Part shown: one piece after another, positions 1 through 64,000 of the stretch
How positions within the stretch are numbered: position 1 is the first letter of the stretch
How the letters are laid out: each line of letters starts with the position of its first letter
Assembly (NCBI RefSeq): GCF_003001675.1
Contig: NZ_PVYW01000003.1
Location: forward strand, 310,001 to 374,000
Length of the DNA: 64,000 bases
Source of the DNA: Cohnella sp. SGD-V74
Lineage (GTDB): Bacteria; Bacillota; Bacilli; Paenibacillales; Paenibacillaceae
Direction: 5' to 3'
Notes under the pieces: generated by a model
Databases searched by the model: none
What the model was told of the DNA's origin: nothing
Seen by the model: the letters and a program-made list of their open reading frames with translations, nothing else
Program-made: the position numbers and the translations under genes

Positions 1-1751
1 TTCACGATCGCCGTCCCCGTATCCTTCCACTTGAACTCCGGAATTTGGTGAACCGGCAGCAAATAGTAGTGGCCCTTCTGCGTGAAGAGCAGCAGCGGGT
101 CGAGCGTGTTGACGCCCAGACTCCAGCGAATGACGTCGCCTTCCTTCACGCCCGCGCTTTCGAGTTCTCCGCCGGATCGGGTGAACGACAGAAGGCTCGT
201 CCTCTTAATGTAGCCTTCGCGGCTTAACGTCACGAGCACTTCTTCCGCCGGAACCATCACTTCCAGGTTGACCTTGATCTCTTCCACTTCGCCCTGAATG
301 ACGGAGCGGCGGTCGATGCCGTACTTGTTGCGGATTTCCGCCAGCTCGTCTTTAATGACGCTCAGCAGCTTGCGCGGACTATCCAGAATGGCGCGCAACT
401 GGGCGATTTTCTTGAGCGTGTCGGCATGCTCCTTCTCGAGCTGGGTAATCTCGAGATTGGTCAGCCGATAGAGCTGCAAGGTGAGAATGGCGTCCGCTTG
501 GCGCTCGGTGAAGCCGAACTTGGCGACCAGGTTGTTTTGCGCGTCTTGACGGTTTTTCGAAGCTTTGATCGTCTCGATGATCTGATCGAGCAGATTCAGC
601 GCCTTGACGAGTCCTTCCAGCACGTGCGCGCGGTCTTCCGCCTTCTCCAGATCGTATTGGGTGCGGTGCGTGACGACTTCCTTCTGGTGCTCGATGTACG
701 CGTCGAGAATATGCTTAAGGCCCAGTTGACGCGGCGCCTTGTTCACGATCGCGACCATGTTGAAGTTGTACGTCGTCTGCAGGTCGGTTTTCTTCAGCAG
801 GAAAGCGAGTATGCCTTCCGCATCCGCATCCTTCTTCAGCTCGACGACGATGCGCAGGCCGTTCCGGCCGCTCTCGTCCCGCACTTCGGCGATGCCTTCG
901 ACCTTCTTCTCCATCCGCAGGCTGTCGATGGCGTTCACGAGCTTCGACTTGACGACTTGGTACGGAATTTCCGTAATGACGATCTGCTGCTTGCCGCCTC
1001 GCATATCTTCGATCGCGGTTTTGGAGCGGATGTGGATTTTCCCTTTGCCCGTCTCGTAAGCTTCGCGAATGCCATCCGCGCCCATAATGATGCCGCCGGT
1101 CGGAAAATCGGGACCTTTCACGGTGTCCATCAGCTCTTGCACCGTAATGTCCGGCTTGTTCATGACGGCGACGCACGCATCGATAATTTCGCGCAGGTTA
1201 TGCGTCGGGATTTCCGTCGCGAAGCCGGCCGATATGCCGGATACGCCGTTCACGAGCAAATTCGGGTAACGCGACGGAAGAACGACGGGCTCCTTGGCCG
1301 TGTTGTCGAAGTTGTCCTTGAACAGCACCGTCCTCTTCTCGATATCGCGCAGCAGCTCCATCGAGATCGGAGACAGACGCGCCTCCGTATACCGCATCGC
1401 CGCAGGAGGATCGTCGTCCATCGATCCCCAGTTGCCGTGCCCGTCGACGAGCATGTGCGCCATTTTCCATGGCTGGGCCATCCGCACCATGCCCTCGTAG
1501 ATCGAGGAGTCGCCGTGAGGGTGGTAGTTCCCCATGACGTCGCCGACCGTCTTGGCCGACTTCCGGTACGGTTTGTCCGGCGTGTTGCCCGACTCGTACA
1601 TCGCGTACAGAATGCGGCGCTGCACCGGCTTCAGGCCGTCGCGAACGTCCGGAATGGCGCGGTCCTGGATAATGTATTTAGAATAGCGTCCGAAGCGGTC
1701 TCCTACGACCTCCTCCAGAAACGCCGGCAAAAAATTTTCAAGTAGGCTCAC
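1..1751 (-). CDS. parC: DNA topoisomerase IV subunit A (partial, 3' end outside window)
   Basis: This is the breakage-reunion subunit of topoisomerase IV, which decatenates daughter chromosomes together with ParE. At least 583 codons are present and the C-terminal beta-pinwheel runs off the left edge. The start is GTG at 1751 ([11 protein letters not shown]), 9 nt after a perfect AGGAGG. The quinolone-determining region reads [11 protein letters not shown] (Ser82, Glu86), so the usual sensitive residues are present. The catalytic tyrosine is Tyr121 in [10 protein letters not shown]. It could be called GyrA by similarity alone, but the partner upstream is a ParE-type subunit. It lies downstream of parE, separated by 293 bp holding palindromic repeats. 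Confidence 0.95.
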
Positions 1752-2044: not shown

Positions 2045-4018
2045 CTACTCCTCGTACTCCGTGAAATCGACGTTTTCGATGATCCAGCGTTTGCGAGGGT
2101 CGACCTTGTCGCCCATGAGCGTCGATACGCGGCGCTCCGCCTTGGCGGCGTCTTCAATCTGCACCTGCAGGAACGTGCGCGTCTCGTAGTTCATCGTCGT
2201 CTCCCACAGCTGGTCGGGGTTCATTTCTCCCAGACCTTTGTACCGCTGCAGCTCGGCGCCCTTGCCGAGCTCCTTCGTGAAGACGCTCAGCTGCTCGTCC
2301 GTCCAGGCGTAGCGCACCGTCTCCAGCTTGCCCGACTTTCTCGTGATCTTGTAGAGCGGCGGCTGGGCGATGAATACTTTGCCCGCGTCGATCAGCGGCT
2401 TCATGTACCGGTAGAAGAAAGTCAGCAGCAGCACTTGAATGTGCGCGCCGTCCGTATCGGCGTCGGTCATAATAATGATCTTGGAATAGTTGCATTCCTC
2501 GACGTCGAACTCCGAGCCGATGCCCGCTCCGATCGCCGAGATGATCGCCTTGTACTCGTCGTTCTTCAGAATGTCGATGAGCTTGGATTTCTCCGGATTC
2601 ATCGGCTTGCCCTTAAGCGGCAGAATGGCCTGGTACTTCGAATCCCGGCCCTGCTTGGCCGATCCGCCCGCGGAATCGCCCTCGACGATGAACAGCTCGT
2701 TGCGGGTGCTGTCCTTGGACTGGGCCGGAGACAGCTTGCCGCCGAGGCTCGCGCTCTCGCTGCGCTTCTTGCCGCTGCGGATTTCCTCGCGCGCTTTGCG
2801 CGCCGCTTCCCGGGCCTTGGAAGCCTGAATCGACTTGCGGATCAGCAGTTGGCCGACCTGCGGATTCTCTTCCAGAAATACGGTCATCTTGTCCGTCACG
2901 ACGGCGTCGACCGCGCTGCGCGCGGAAGCGCTCCCGAGCTGGTCCTTCGTCTGGCCGACGAATTCGACCTCGGACATTTTAATATTGATGACCGCCATCA
3001 TGCCTTCGCGCAGGTCGTTGCCTTCGAGATTTTTTTCCTTCTCCTTCAGCTGTCCCGTCTTGCGCGCATATTCGTTCATCACCCGCGTGTAGGCGGTTTT
3101 GAAGCCCGTCTCGTGCGTGCCTCCGCCCCTCGTCGGAATGGCGTTGACGAACGATGCGATCGTCTCCGTATAGCCGTCGTTGTACTGCAGCGCGATCTCG
3201 ACCTCGATGTCGTCCTTCTCCGCCGCAAAATGGATGACATCGTGCAGCACCGATTTCTCTTCGTTCAGGAACTGCACGAACTGGCGCGCGCCGCCTTCGT
3301 AATGGAACGAATCCGACTTGCCGCTGCGCTCGTCCTTGATGTTGACCTTCAGTCCGGAGTTGAGGAACGCAATTTCCTGCAGCCGCTCCGACAAGGTGTC
3401 GTAGTTCATGCTGACGTTGCCGTGGAACACTTTCGGATCGGGCTTAAACGTCACCTTCGTGCCGGTGCGGTTCGTGTTGCCGGTCACTTCCAGCCCCGTC
3501 ACGGGCTCTCCGACATGCTCCACGCCTTTGTCGTCGACCCACGTCTCGAATCTCATCTTATGTATTTTGCCATCGCGGTAAATCTCGACTTCCAGCCACT
3601 CGGACAGGGCGTTCGTTACCGAAGCGCCTACCCCGTGCAGCCCGCCGGACTTCTTATAGCCGCCTCCGCCGAATTTGCCGCCCGCGTGCAGGATCGTATA
3701 GACGACCTGAGGCGTCGGGATGCCGCTCTTGTGCATGCCCGTCGGAATGCCCCGCCCGTTATCGATGACCGTAACGGAGTTGTTCGCATGAACAGTGACG
3801 TCGATGCGCGAGCAGAACTTGGCCAGATGCTCGTCCACGGCGTTGTCCACGATCTCCCACAACAGATGATGCAGACCCGACGTCGTCGTGCTGCCGATGT
3901 ACATGCCCGGCCTTTTGCGAACGGCGGTCAGCCCTTCTAAAATTTGAATATCATCCGCGCTGTATTCACTTCCCGCCTGCGCGGCGGATTCAGTGAAAAT
4001 ATCCAGTTGTTCGGTCAC
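2045..4018 (-). CDS. parE: DNA topoisomerase IV subunit B
   Basis: This is the ATPase subunit of topoisomerase IV, 657 aa. The start is GTG at 4018, 8 nt after AAGGAGGTC. The N-terminal GHKL ATPase shows EIVDNAVDEH, DNGRGIPTG and GGLHGVGASV. The transducer domain follows. The TOPRIM domain shows EGDSAGGSAKQGRD and MTDADTDGAHI, and the C-terminal QRYKGLGEMN and MGDKVDPRKRW motifs are intact. GyrB is the alternative, but the pairing with an A subunit directly downstream and the length favour ParE. Gene order is parE then parC, with a repeat-filled gap that may reduce coupling. Confidence 0.95.
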   Translation of the reverse strand: MTEQLDIFTESAAQAGSEYSADDIQILEGLTAVRKRPGMYIGSTTTSGLHHLLWEIVDNAVDEHLAKFCSRIDVTVHANNSVTVIDNGRGIPTGMHKSGIPTPQVVYTILHAGGKFGGGGYKKSGGLHGVGASVTNALSEWLEVEIYRDGKIHKMRFETWVDDKGVEHVGEPVTGLEVTGNTNRTGTKVTFKPDPKVFHGNVSMNYDTLSERLQEIAFLNSGLKVNIKDERSGKSDSFHYEGGARQFVQFLNEEKSVLHDVIHFAAEKDDIEVEIALQYNDGYTETIASFVNAIPTRGGGTHETGFKTAYTRVMNEYARKTGQLKEKEKNLEGNDLREGMMAVINIKMSEVEFVGQTKDQLGSASARSAVDAVVTDKMTVFLEENPQVGQLLIRKSIQASKAREAARKAREEIRSGKKRSESASLGGKLSPAQSKDSTRNELFIVEGDSAGGSAKQGRDSKYQAILPLKGKPMNPEKSKLIDILKNDEYKAIISAIGAGIGSEFDVEECNYSKIIIMTDADTDGAHIQVLLLTFFYRYMKPLIDAGKVFIAQPPLYKITRKSGKLETVRYAWTDEQLSVFTKELGKGAELQRYKGLGEMNPDQLWETTMNYETRTFLQVQIEDAAKAERRVSTLMGDKVDPRKRWIIENVDFTEYEE

Positions 4019-22062: not shown

Positions 22063-22974
22063 ATGGAGTTCCGCCAATTGCAATACGCCATCCAAATCGC
22101 GAATGAAAGAAACTTCTCGCGCGCCGCCGAGAAGCTGCACATCGCCCAACCGTCCCTTAGCCAGCAGCTGTCCAAGCTCGAGAAGGAGCTCGGCGTGCTG
22201 CTGTTCAAGAGAAGCACAAACTCCGTCGAACTGACGCACGCGGGCGACGTGTTCGTCAAGAAAGCGCAGCAGATCGTCGATATGGCCGACCAGCTTCGCC
22301 GCGAGATGGAGGACATCGCCGACATGCGCAAAGGCCGGCTCGTCGTCGGCAGCCTCCCGATGACCGGCGCCCACGTGCTGCCGCACGTTCTTCCCGTTTT
22401 CCGCGAGGCCTACCCGAACATTGAAATCGTGCTCATCGAAGAGACGACCCGGCAGTTGGAACAGCTGACCGCCAGCGGCGGCACGGACGTCAGCCTGCTC
22501 TCGCTTCCGCTGATTGAGCCGTCGCTCGCCTATCTTCCCGTCATCGAAGAAGGCATCTGCCTCGCCGTGCCTCCCGACCACCCTCTCGCGCATCCGCAGT
22601 ACCGGGACAAGGAAATTTCCGTCGGGCTGCTGAAGGACGAGCCGTTCGTTCTTTTGAAGAAAGGCCAAGGGTTCCGCCTGATCGCGCACGATCTGTGCGC
22701 CGCGGCCGGCTTCGACCCGCGCGTCGTCTTCGAGAGCGCCAACATCGACACTGTCCAGTCGCTGGTGGCCGCCGGCATGGGCGTCGCCTTCCTGCCCAAG
22801 ATGGTCACTCGCAGCGACTGGCCTGGCCGCGCCCCGGTATACCTGCAATTGGAAGGCCGTCCGACGCGTACGCTGGTCATCGCCTATCGCAAAGGACGCT
22901 ACCTGTCCAACGCGGCCGAGGCTTTCATCTCGACGTTCCGCTCCACGTTCGACAAGATCGATATGGGAAAATAA
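22063..22974 (+). CDS. LysR-family transcriptional regulator
   Basis: A 303-aa LysR regulator. The N-terminal winged helix-turn-helix (residues 1-60, MEFRQLQYAIQIANERNFSRAAEKL, IAQPSLSQQLSKLEKELGV) is followed by a linker helix and a periplasmic-binding-like effector domain (about 90-295). Start ATG at 22063 after AAAGGAGGG. Divergent from leuCD, so regulation of leuCD or of itself is the natural guess; the effector is unknown. Sequence style resembles the CcpE/CitR/YwbI branch but I cannot place it precisely. Confidence 0.88.
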   Translation: MEFRQLQYAIQIANERNFSRAAEKLHIAQPSLSQQLSKLEKELGVLLFKRSTNSVELTHAGDVFVKKAQQIVDMADQLRREMEDIADMRKGRLVVGSLPMTGAHVLPHVLPVFREAYPNIEIVLIEETTRQLEQLTASGGTDVSLLSLPLIEPSLAYLPVIEEGICLAVPPDHPLAHPQYRDKEISVGLLKDEPFVLLKKGQGFRLIAHDLCAAAGFDPRVVFESANIDTVQSLVAAGMGVAFLPKMVTRSDWPGRAPVYLQLEGRPTRTLVIAYRKGRYLSNAAEAFISTFRSTFDKIDMGK

Positions 22975-23035: not shown

Positions 23036-23212
23036 GCTAACGGTCTGACAGACCGTTAATCCGCCGACTCACCTCTGCGAGGGACCGCTAACGGTCCAGC
23101 AGACCACTAATCCGTCGACTCCCCGCCGGGAGAGACCGCTAACGGTCTGACAGACCGTTAATCCGGCGATTCACCTCTACGAGAAACCGCTAACGGTCCG
23201 ACAGACCGTTAA
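23036..23212. repeat. 51-bp-period palindromic repeat, cluster 2 (4 units)
   Basis: Four palindromes start at 23036, 23087, 23138 and 23189, exactly 51 bp apart. The core is CTAACGGTC-TGACA-GACCGTTAA with small variations; unit 2 has one degenerate arm (ACCACTAA). The core matches cluster 1 near parC, but the roughly 26-bp spacers (TCCGCCGACTCACCTCTGCG and relatives) are unrelated to those of cluster 1. Within this cluster the spacers are similar to each other. It fills the gap between the LysR gene and mtnU. Confidence 0.9.
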
Positions 23213-23252: not shown

Positions 23253-24047
23253 TCACTCGTATAATTCGGGTCTGCGGTCGGCGAATACCGGGATGCGGCC
23301 GCGCACCTCGTCGACGAGCGCGAGATCGATGTCGGCGACGAGAATCGTCTCCCGCTCTTCGGCTTCGGCCACGACTTCTCCCCATGGATCGATGACCATC
23401 GAGTGGCCGAAGAAGCTGGAGCCCCCACTTTCACCGACCGTATTGCAGGAGACGACGAACATCTGGTTCTCGATCGCCCTGGCCTGCAGCAGCGTGCGCC
23501 AGTGATGCAGGCGGGGATGCGGCCATTCTGCCGGGACGATCAACAGCTTCGCCCCGCCCAAAGCCAGCTTGCGGGCCAACTCGGGAAAACGGATGTCATA
23601 GCAGATCATCGCCGCCGCCGGAACGCCCTCCAGTTCGAACGATCCCGCCGCTCCCCCTGCTTCCAGATGAAGATGCTCGTTCATCAACTGGAACAGGTGA
23701 ATTTTGCTGTATTCGGCAATATTGGCTCCCGTCCGATCGAACGCGTGGATCGTGTTCGTCACACCTTCGCCGCGCAGCTGCGCGATCGATCCCGCGAGCA
23801 CGTTGACGCCGTGACGGCGGCAAAACTCGGACACGAGCTTCTTCGTGCGCTCTCCGTCCGGGTCCGCCAGCTTGCGGATTTCCTTCAGGGCGTAACCCGT
23901 GTTCCACATTTCGGGCAGCACGATCAAGTCCGGCTTCGGCTCAAGCGCGGCCGCCTCTTCCAGCTTCTGCTCCATTTTGGCGAAGTTGGCTTCCGTATTC
24001 CCCGCTTCTATATTCATCTGCACTAATGCAATCCTCAATTGAGTCAT
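23253..24047 (-). CDS. mtnU: Carbon-nitrogen hydrolase, probable omega-amidase MtnU
   Basis: A 264-aa nitrilase-superfamily hydrolase with the Glu-Lys-Cys triad: Glu in IVLPEMWNTGY, Lys in YSKIHLF, Cys in MICYDIRFPE. It probably hydrolyses 2-oxoglutaramate formed when a glutamine-dependent aminotransferase makes methionine from its keto acid, as proposed for YkrU/MtnU of B. subtilis. The divergent neighbour is the matching aminotransferase MtnE, which supports this role over a generic amidase. Start ATG at 24047 after AGGAGTG. Confidence 0.82.
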   Translation of the reverse strand: MTQLRIALVQMNIEAGNTEANFAKMEQKLEEAAALEPKPDLIVLPEMWNTGYALKEIRKLADPDGERTKKLVSEFCRRHGVNVLAGSIAQLRGEGVTNTIHAFDRTGANIAEYSKIHLFQLMNEHLHLEAGGAAGSFELEGVPAAAMICYDIRFPELARKLALGGAKLLIVPAEWPHPRLHHWRTLLQARAIENQMFVVSCNTVGESGGSSFFGHSMVIDPWGEVVAEAEERETILVADIDLALVDEVRGRIPVFADRRPELYE

Positions 24048-63141: not shown

Positions 63142-63407
63142 TTTTGTCGCTATCCCCGTCCGTCAGTCCATCTGCTTCTTTCCGTTCCACTTTCCGCTTC
63201 TTTTTGTCGCTATCCCCGTCCGTCAGTCCTCCCCAGCAGCTCACTTCCTTTTCATCCCTTTTACCGCTATCCCCTTCCCTCAGTTCAGGCCGTACCTCTC
63301 TTATCGCTTTTTTTGCTCCTTTTGCCGCTATCCCTTCCGATCAGTTCACGCCTCAACCATACTACCGCTTTTTCGTTCCTTTTGCCGCTATCCCTTTGAG
63401 TCAGTTG
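63142..63407. repeat. About 60-bp tandem direct repeats, left arm (5 copies)
   Basis: The motif TTTTGYCGCTATCCCC...GTCAGT begins at 63142, 63201, 63259, 63320 and 63380, a period of 58-61 bp. Copies 1 and 2 are almost identical over 27 bp; later copies drift (CCGCTATCCCTTCC.., CCGCTATCCCTTTG..). The intervening part is pyrimidine-rich with TTCCTTTT. The open frames across it are low-complexity Pro/Ser/Leu/Phe and are not credible proteins. Confidence 0.88.
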
Positions 63408-63630: not shown

Positions 63631-63967
63631 GGGATACCAAGCAAGCTGCTGAACGTTAATTCACAGCCGTGAGGATGATCAACTGAATGAACCGGTATGG
63701 CTTATCGCTAAACGCTGATAACCAGATTTCTGAGCTGTCGGGATACCGACAAATGGAGGATAGGATAGGTCATGGCCGATCCCGCAGGAAGCGTACGACC
63801 AACCTGACTGGATGGGATACCGACAAAAGAGCGGAAAAGGCGCTACATACGGCATTCAAATTGTGGTGCAGAAAAGCTGAGTGGATGGGATACCGGCAAA
63901 AGAGCGGAAAAGGCGCTACATACGGCATTCAAATTGTGGTGCAGAAAAGCTGAGTGGACGGGATACC
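63631..63967. repeat. 73-bp direct repeats, right arm, in inverted orientation to the left arm
   Basis: GGGATACC occurs at 63631, 63740, 63814, 63887 and 63960; the last three are exactly 73 bp apart. The 73-bp blocks from 63811 and 63884 differ by only about one base (CCGAC versus CCGGC). The motif CTGAC-GGA-GGGATA-CGACAAAA is the reverse complement of the left-arm motif with small changes, so the two arms are related inverted arrays. The window ends shortly after, so more copies may follow. Confidence 0.9.
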
Positions 63968-64000
63968 GACAAATGAGGCAGAGAAACGATAAACCCCGGG

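Follow-up and report, generated by a model that had tools for sequence, protein, structure and literature searches.

Cohnella sp. SGD-V74 is among the soil-dwelling relatives of Paenibacillus whose genomes carry intergenic arrays of a short palindromic core. Here the copies stand 51 bp apart, approximately five turns of the DNA helix, on spacers that have little in common beyond A/T-rich stretches in phase with the cores. Most departures from this spacing are by whole turns. Neither the five-turn basis of the unit nor the change of the core's inner triplet from species to species under a constant layout figured in the original prediction, which described two clusters in a window of 64,000 nucleotides (the whole stretch of DNA analysed). 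On balance, we consider that the arrays are probably helically phased platforms on which duplex DNA is bound or wrapped by a putative homodimeric protein, in a role like that of BIME-2.

Cluster 2 (23038-23211) consists of four 21-bp palindromic cores of the form TAACGGTC-N5-GACCGTTA at steps of 51, 51 and 51 bp, and lies between a LysR-type regulator gene and a convergent nitrilase-family gene. Cluster 1 (1843-2016), situated between parE and parC, has the same core and period, with starts at 1843, 1894, 1945 and 1996. The features are as follows, cores and spacers being given with no strand.

3-1751, minus strand: parC (topoisomerase IV A), running off the window, downstream of cluster 1
1790-1810: degenerate fifth core of cluster 1, differing from the core pattern at 3 positions, with a step of 53 bp to the next core
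1843-1863: cluster 1 core, TAGCGGTC-N5-GACCGCTA
1894-1914: cluster 1 core
1945-1965: cluster 1 core, imperfect
1996-2016: cluster 1 core, imperfect
2045-4018, minus strand: parE (topoisomerase IV B), its stop 28 bp from cluster 1
22063-22974, plus strand: LysR-type regulator gene (LysR-family models, below equivalog cut-offs), 63 bp from gene end to cluster 2
23038-23058: cluster 2 core 1, TAACGGTC-TGACA-GACCGTTA
23059-23088: cluster 2 spacer 1, 30 bp
23089-23109: cluster 2 core 2, imperfect, TAACGGTC-CAGCA-GACCACTA
23110-23139: cluster 2 spacer 2, 30 bp
23140-23160: cluster 2 core 3
23161-23190: cluster 2 spacer 3, 30 bp
23191-23211: cluster 2 core 4
23253-24047, minus strand: nitrilase/amidohydrolase-family gene, convergent (below equivalog cut-offs), 41 bp from cluster 2 to gene end

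The best model for parC, parC_Gpos (257-1751 scanned), scored below its cut-off because the protein is cut. Two of the four main cores of cluster 1 and one of the four in cluster 2 depart from a perfect palindrome, with 1 or 2 mismatches between the arms. The window contains 12 copies of TAACGGTC where 1.25 would be expected; none of 100 shuffles reached this count, and 11 of the 12 copies belong to the two clusters. TRF returned a period of 51 at both. The common palindrome and 51-bp period that had been predicted are thereby confirmed.

A second phased repeat family was observed in the window at 63148-63394 and 63740-63977. Its motif, CG[CG]TATCCC, is not palindromic by eye and recurs at steps of 60, 57, 61 and 60 bp on the plus strand and 74, 73 and 73 bp on the minus strand, near six and seven helical turns. 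A 50-bp array beside a main array of C. terricola (L161:1217-1394) resembles this family by eye.

Cores were counted in the window's genome (8.24 Mb; G000), with 83 near matches (up to 3 mismatches) in the forward pattern against 8 in the reversed control; a looser pattern (2 mismatches) returned 392 against 470 in the control and is too loose for counting. When steps of 36 to 66 bp were allowed, all 19 exact core pairs of G000 and 23 of the 24 in C. phaseoli (G020) fell at 51 bp; C. terricola (G032) yielded 100 exact pairs within the allowed range, and the reversed pattern none in any of the three. This exact-pair pattern is matched in only 5 of the 37 Cohnella genomes. Among 21 clusters (65 cores) in 20 stretches fetched from G000, 16 have at least two cores and, with the pair at C12:125087 left out, give 44 steps: 40 of 51 bp, two of 50 and one each of 52 and 53. 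The fetched stretches of C. terricola and C. phaseoli gave 51 bp in 198 of 207 and 50 of 52 steps, respectively. In Thermobacillus sp. ZCTH02-B1, selected with 41 to 66 bp allowed, 39 of 70 steps were 52 bp and 28 were 63 bp.

The wider distribution was assessed with a covariance model, R1, built from 22 ungapped core-30-core sequences and possessing two 8-bp stems. R1 found matches in 34 of the 37 Cohnella genomes (E ≤ 0.01), with at least 10 in 29 of them (both strands often counted). Three genomes had no match and five more only 1 to 8, so members of the genus can do without the arrays. At stricter settings (E ≤ 1e-4, R1 E-values being rough), the family gave matches in 90 of 394 genomes (12 of 19 genera), and a sample of the order, with the family included, gave them in 82 of 392 (22 of 49 genera). 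Chains of at least two cores were present in 27 of 30 inspected loci, each taken from a different genome. Lone core matches in other phyla, in 7 of 63 fetched stretches classed as 'other', may be chance. R1 holds spacer columns and the 51-bp step. Array sets found with it, among them those behind the survey steps, the A/T test on 25 other genomes, the triplet comparison and the 272-core count below, lean towards both; since the model asks for ~51 bp per match, the 51-bp peak of the R1 set arises partly by construction, while its side peaks do not. The exact-pair search, the Thermobacillus search, the fetched core-selected stretches and the three-genome A/T test described below are freer of this bias.

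A chain finder allowing steps of 30 to 75 bp was run on survey loci L213-L292. It returned 43 steps of 50 bp, 284 of 51, 57 of 52, 5 of 53, 36 of 60 to 63 and 5 of 73, together with single steps of 33, 40, 55 and 58 bp. Of 45 departures outside 49 to 54 bp in this set, 42 lay at one-turn steps (40, 60-63 and 73 bp; the steps of 55 and 58 bp are among the three misses) against a null share of 0.25 (p = 3e-22, with counts that are not independent and step windows set after seeing the data). Departures in the core-selected sets were 33, 41, 60, 63, 66 and 69 bp in C. terricola (three of six at one-turn steps), 68 bp in C. phaseoli, 62 bp once and 63 bp 28 times in Thermobacillus, 62 bp in C. silvisoli and, in the remainder, 41 bp and four times 62 bp. 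In these sets the whole-turn comb is clear in Thermobacillus, whereas C. terricola gives a mixed picture, and overall it is less regular than in the survey set. Two loci of an uncultured Bacillota MAG, HSP1.bin40 (L137 and L152), have TAGCGGTC-type cores at four 62-bp steps and one of 41 bp.

Spacers were compared within and between arrays. Within-array identity was 0.70, 0.82 and 0.85 in three genomes, and between-array identity 0.40 to 0.45, with 0.31 for shuffled sequences. When one spacer per array was used, identity in G000 was 0.398 against 0.391 ± 0.014 from column composition alone; between-cluster identity equals the composition model, and the spacers are thus unrelated apart from a common A/T pattern. 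The corresponding values were 0.440 against 0.428 ± 0.019 in C. phaseoli and, with a small excess, 0.453 against 0.423 ± 0.011 in C. terricola. Some array pairs do share a spacer (7 of 120 in G000, 68 of 465 in C. terricola and 5 of 55 in the third genome), demonstrating that units spread. Copy number and spacers vary widely even among close relatives, and in one array on contig C5 of G000 (C5:169143-169469; L028:2893-3270) two different units alternate with a 102-bp period over most of the array.

The spacers have in common a pattern in which positions 10-12 and 19-21 favour A/T and the bases between them G/C. In each of three genomes (16, 31 and 11 arrays, picked by core letters and broad spacing and not by spacer), an A/T periodicity of ~10 bp in phase with the cores was reached in 0 of 2000 shuffles that permuted positions within arrays, the best periods being 10.0, 9.5 and 10.5 bp. 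The phasing recurred in a set of 56 arrays from 25 further genomes (period 10.5, z 16.5, 0 of 2000), and 62-bp spacers (14 arrays, 15 spacers) showed an additional A/T peak, again with a period of 10.5. The best period in 52-bp spacers (23 arrays) was 11.5, not 10.5. A/T-G/C phasing near 10.5 bp is a BIME-2-like trait. No A/T phasing was observed in 75 control stretches, where 108 of 500 shuffles reached the control value. The pattern is statistical, and in cluster 2 by itself it is visible only in part.

Several parts of the original prediction are borne out by these data. It had held that spacers are similar within a cluster (measured identity 0.70) and unrelated between clusters (measured 0.40, the column-composition level), and that each cluster arose by local tandem duplication with core and unit length maintained; the likeness of spacers within arrays and the two-unit repeat at C5 agree with such duplication. 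The genome-wide check of the 51-bp unit gave 51 bp in 40 of 44 spacings in the fetched clusters of G000, and the opposite outcome, a variable unit length with no conservation of the core, was not found.

The core is composed of inverted 8-bp half-sites, usually with TARCG outside and a species-typical triplet inside (GTC, GCA, GTG, GAA, ATG and others). The inner triplet was common to 68 of 94 same-genome array pairs and to 289 of 2534 between-genome pairs, a difference reached in 0 of 2000 label shuffles (73 arrays from 32 genomes; L252 has no genome assignment, and three loci give two like pieces each). Pairing is kept between species whose triplets differ. Several genomes possess two triplet types, such as GCA and GTG in G005, GCA and ATG in G010, and GCA and TTG in G019. 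Two mixed arrays were also seen, with ATG-type beside GAA-type cores in L223 (G009) and GAA-type beside another type in L199 (G027), a picture that would fit the on-site replacement of one core type by another.

Arrays of different species were found in the same gaps between genes; these coincidences are observed examples, presented without a chance expectation. The LysR-nitrilase gap of cluster 2 holds arrays in 5 of 30 genomes (nitrilase loci were returned for 30 of 37, and 6 of the 30 lacked a LysR match next to the nitrilase gene). In G000, C. phaseoli and C. terricola the triplet here is GTC and the spacers are unrelated; G017 has TAGTGCCG/TAGAGCCG half-sites at 51 bp and G014 has TAACGGAA half-sites at 51, 52 and 62 bp. 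Duplication alone is no full explanation for arrays with unrelated spacers at one orthologous site in different species. Five genomes have arrays in the parE-parC gap (loci for 30 of 37), with GTC in G000 and C. phaseoli, ATA in G004, GAA and a further type in G027, and weak GAC-like units in G003; the same gap of C. terricola has no array. Behind gltX, the triplet is GTC in G000 and GTG in G015, and a GAA array of G027 lies on the opposite side of gltX. For the gap between argS and its convergent neighbour, the triplets are GCA in G026, GTG/GCG in G031 and ATG in G022, and a convergent gap at a CNNM-type gene has GTC in C. terricola and GCA in G019. Behind ddl, where the far-side gene differs, C. 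terricola has GTC and G003 has GAA, and one gap in two genomes of the genus Thermobacillus holds GTC in G391 and GCA in G392. Array-free intergenic regions are too divergent for an empty-site footprint to be read.

The parE-parC gap also contains further repeated elements, seen by eye in L187, L188, L189, L194 and L200 and in L195, L197, L199 and L206. They comprise an inverted repeat that surrounds a TTAAAATC(G/A)AG-type word and a block that includes CCCCGGAAGGGGGAT. This gap looks like a repeat hot spot.

Under selection for a hairpin, a change in one half-site should be answered in its partner, and we counted changes in 272 distinct cores from 66 arrays. At position 3, the most variable, 65 left and 59 right half-site changes included 9 joint changes where independence predicts 14.1. 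In G000 the same position had 18 and 16 changes, 7 of them joint (5.2 expected), and position 2 in C. terricola had 16 and 14, with 0 joint (1.6 expected). In the 272-core set, position 4 gave 4 joint changes against 2.4 expected, and positions 1, 6, 7 and 8 gave 2 to 3 against 0.2 to 0.9, of which 0 to 3 pair; these small excesses come from few cells. Most changes lack compensation, a point against a hairpin, and the half-sites are largely independent. G.T or A.C changes were one-sided in 14 of 31 arrays with at least 3 such cells and mixed in the other 17. The one-sided share exceeds the quarter or less expected for independent cells, an excess that shared descent could produce. A constant one-sided G.T wobble, seen in single clusters, was rejected since it fails across the 31 arrays. 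Taken together, the core sequences favour a duplex site read by a putative dimer, beside some possible pairing.

The arrays are intergenic, with none wholly within a called gene (calls by a simple codon-usage script); one lies over an ORF of low score, and a few abut the end of a gene. Convergent gaps account for 26 of the 74 gaps with arrays against 37 of 372 elsewhere (p = 3e-7), and divergent gaps for 3 of 74 against 55 of 372 (p = 0.013); the remaining 45 and 280, respectively, are co-directional. By a previous and rougher count, 21 gaps were convergent, 32 co-directional and 4 divergent. Where the flanking genes are co-directional, the array is closer to the upstream stop in 35 of 45 cases. 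Three G000 arrays (L031, L037 and L042) lie 121 bp behind 5S rRNA genes, on contigs that end inside rRNA operons, and others adjoin smc/ftsY and parE/parC. The 3' location alone could reflect mere tolerance of insertions. Group II intron domains were noted at L037:1597-1892, ~1 kb from the array behind the rRNA operon.

We searched for a protein that might read or move the cores. The original prediction had pointed to a linked transposase of the REP type or a DNA-binding protein that recognises the sequence. Matches to Y1_Tnp (PF01797, E ≤ 0.001) occur in 12 of the 37 Cohnella genomes, with none in the array-rich genomes of C. phaseoli and C. terricola and a single partial match with an internal stop in G000. 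As the PF01797 pattern across the genus does not track the arrays, a REP transposase was rejected as their mover or reader. Within 8 bases 5' of the core, GTAG was found in 0 of 130 flanks in G000, 0 of 474 in C. terricola, 0 of 164 in Thermobacillus and 5 of 128 in C. phaseoli; spacer positions 1 to 3 in G000 (columns symmetrised) carry 0.38, 0.15 and 0.13 bits. Common families apart, neither the genes that flank the single arrays of OV330 and C. silvisoli nor the 40 largest clusters from an all-against-all comparison of 859 called array-neighbour genes yielded a candidate reader (loci chosen for orthology and gaps shared between species were set aside). By eye, the recurrent neighbours belong to what seem to be common, many-copy families: response regulators, which include DNA-binding proteins (28 in 25 loci), ABC ATPases (18 in 16) and LacI-type regulators (6 in 6). 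Overall, the predicted local duplication and the maintained core and unit stand, and the REP transposase does not.

Other identities were also dismissed. RsfA, a Myb-like protein, is present in all 37 Cohnella genomes including those without arrays, with a second copy in G016 and G021 (the latter below cut-off), and its DNA-binding helix is near-invariant across triplets (29 readable of 30 rows; G018 unreadable); it was thus rejected as the reader of the triplet. Myb sites resemble TAACNG, and RsfA could read the outer TAACG. A coding repeat was rejected by reasoning because the 52-bp unit breaks frame and the core holds TAA. No GTC core was found in viral contigs, which were searched for a phage link. 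An RNA or hairpin form was examined through the strand asymmetry and compensation tests above, with changes mostly uncompensated, and Rfam returned no match at gathering scores in the window.

Interspersed, intergenic, palindromic arrays with tandem growth also recall a REP/BIME-like mobile element, largely selfish, in which single-stranded hairpin cores are moved or copied by a transposase and then amplified in tandem. The spacers common to some array pairs, the ATG-type cores beside GAA-type in L223 and the differing core types at the same sites between species speak for such an origin. However, two array-rich genomes lack Y1_Tnp, GTAG is all but missing from the core flanks, half-site changes are mostly uncompensated, and a hairpin transposase would leave whole-turn steps and A/T phasing unexplained; we regard this explanation as unlikely. 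Chance tandem duplication with concerted evolution, yielding a functionless neutral satellite, would account for the wide variation in copy number and spacers even in close relatives, but the fixed 51-bp unit despite unrelated spacers, the whole-turn steps, the A/T phasing and the species-typical cores make it very unlikely.

Two further explanations assign the arrays a function. The first would make them sites that organise the chromosome, as matS and parS do, all recognised by a single conserved nucleoid protein; their dispersal and palindromic form agree with this, as do the G000 arrays that adjoin smc/ftsY and parE/parC. Known matS/parS-type sites, however, usually stand alone and are well conserved within a family, whereas the core here differs among species of the same genus, some of which have no arrays. 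We consider this explanation decidedly unlikely. Location behind genes, pairing kept across species with different triplets and one-sided G.T or A.C changes in 14 arrays would suit an RNA element whose 8-bp hairpins, in 3' untranslated regions, stabilise or end transcripts. Within species, however, the partner half-site mostly fails to compensate (position 3 above), the G.T/A.C changes are mixed in 17 arrays, the window has no Rfam match at gathering scores, and helical spacing has no evident meaning for RNA. An RNA element is, in our judgement, highly improbable.

Instead, we favour arrays that would act as double-stranded DNA sites for a homodimer, all presented on one helix face, with cores five turns apart (50-53 bp) and at times six (60-63) or seven (73). 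Spacers with A/T-rich stretches every ~10 bp would fit DNA curved or wrapped against protein. Tandem duplication may grow and homogenise the arrays, and selection would keep length and phase as the spacer sequence drifts. Given their position after genes and rRNA operons and in convergent gaps, their most likely role would be that of topological or nucleoid anchors, perhaps bearing on supercoiling. In function they would resemble E. coli BIME-2, which binds gyrase, and the core would be read by a protein particular to the species. Because the triplet is species-typical, an additional sequence-specific protein would be needed beside gyrase; we would not expect gyrase alone to read it.

More tentatively, the arrays may belong to a fast-evolving DNA address system extending across the order, in which a putative dimeric protein (or small paralogue family) and its phased sites re-specify together. 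The inner triplet would then change by species as layout, spacing and some chromosomal positions persist, with the arrays serving as DNA-wrapping platforms behind transcription units. PRDM9 and its motif in mammals provide a parallel for such joint re-specification of reader and site.

The comparison with E. coli rests on several likenesses. A 130-bp gyrase motif with GC phased at 10.75 bp and A/T turned towards the protein is described in passages of PMC6379681, where each GyrA C-terminal domain wraps 35-52 bp and gyrase sites are placed in BIME-2 as well as downstream of rRNA operons. BIME-2/REP arrays are likewise tandem intergenic palindromes, and sites lie behind rRNA operons in both systems. 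In contrast, the Cohnella arrays have no GTAG tag at the core and, in two array-rich genomes, no Y1_Tnp; they add rigid helical spacing, A/T-phased spacers and a triplet that differs by species, and their link to gyrase is drawn by analogy. The phasing of the gyrase motif and its wrap of 35-52 bp resemble what is proposed for the arrays, but the passages of PMC6379681 describe no inverted-repeat core or species-specific triplet.

Intergenic, palindromic and present in high copy, the arrays possess traits of the REP type, and the high-copy, species-specific palindromes of the REPtron (TnpA_REP with REP), as presented in passages of PMC8266576, are similar. Unlike the REPtron, the two array-rich Cohnella genomes have no transposase, GTAG is missing and any hairpin signature is weak at most. 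GTAG/CGTC-tagged palindromic repeats are also short palindromes, sometimes grouped, but the spacers of most of their dimers vary from 20 to 100 bp in the account given in parts of PMC3733652. The terms Firmicutes, Paenibacillus and Cohnella are absent from the main text of that paper, and Cohnella and Paenibacillus from the main text of PMC12306157. The regular repeat-spacer period recalls CRISPR; compared by repeat layout alone, the arrays differ in that spacers are alike within an array (0.70-0.85), the repeat is palindromic and there are many arrays per genome. A search of the literature on intergenic repeats of Cohnella and Paenibacillus, with subscription papers mostly outside it, found no description of these arrays. 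The one-turn departures, the phased A/T in unrelated spacers and the species-typical triplet with its differing orthologous gaps look new.

A transposase is the usual explanation for REP-like repeats where they are not simply written off as junk. The present arrays record a geometry in the sequence itself, as whole-turn spacing and phased A/T in spacers that have no common sequence. The genomes form a natural series in which the recognition triplet has changed and the geometry has been kept, so that the reader, its code and a role in DNA topology are directly testable. Binding by gyrase or a nucleoid protein, if it occurs, would make them phased substrates already prepared for wrapping, and the equivalent of BIME-2 in Gram-positive bacteria.
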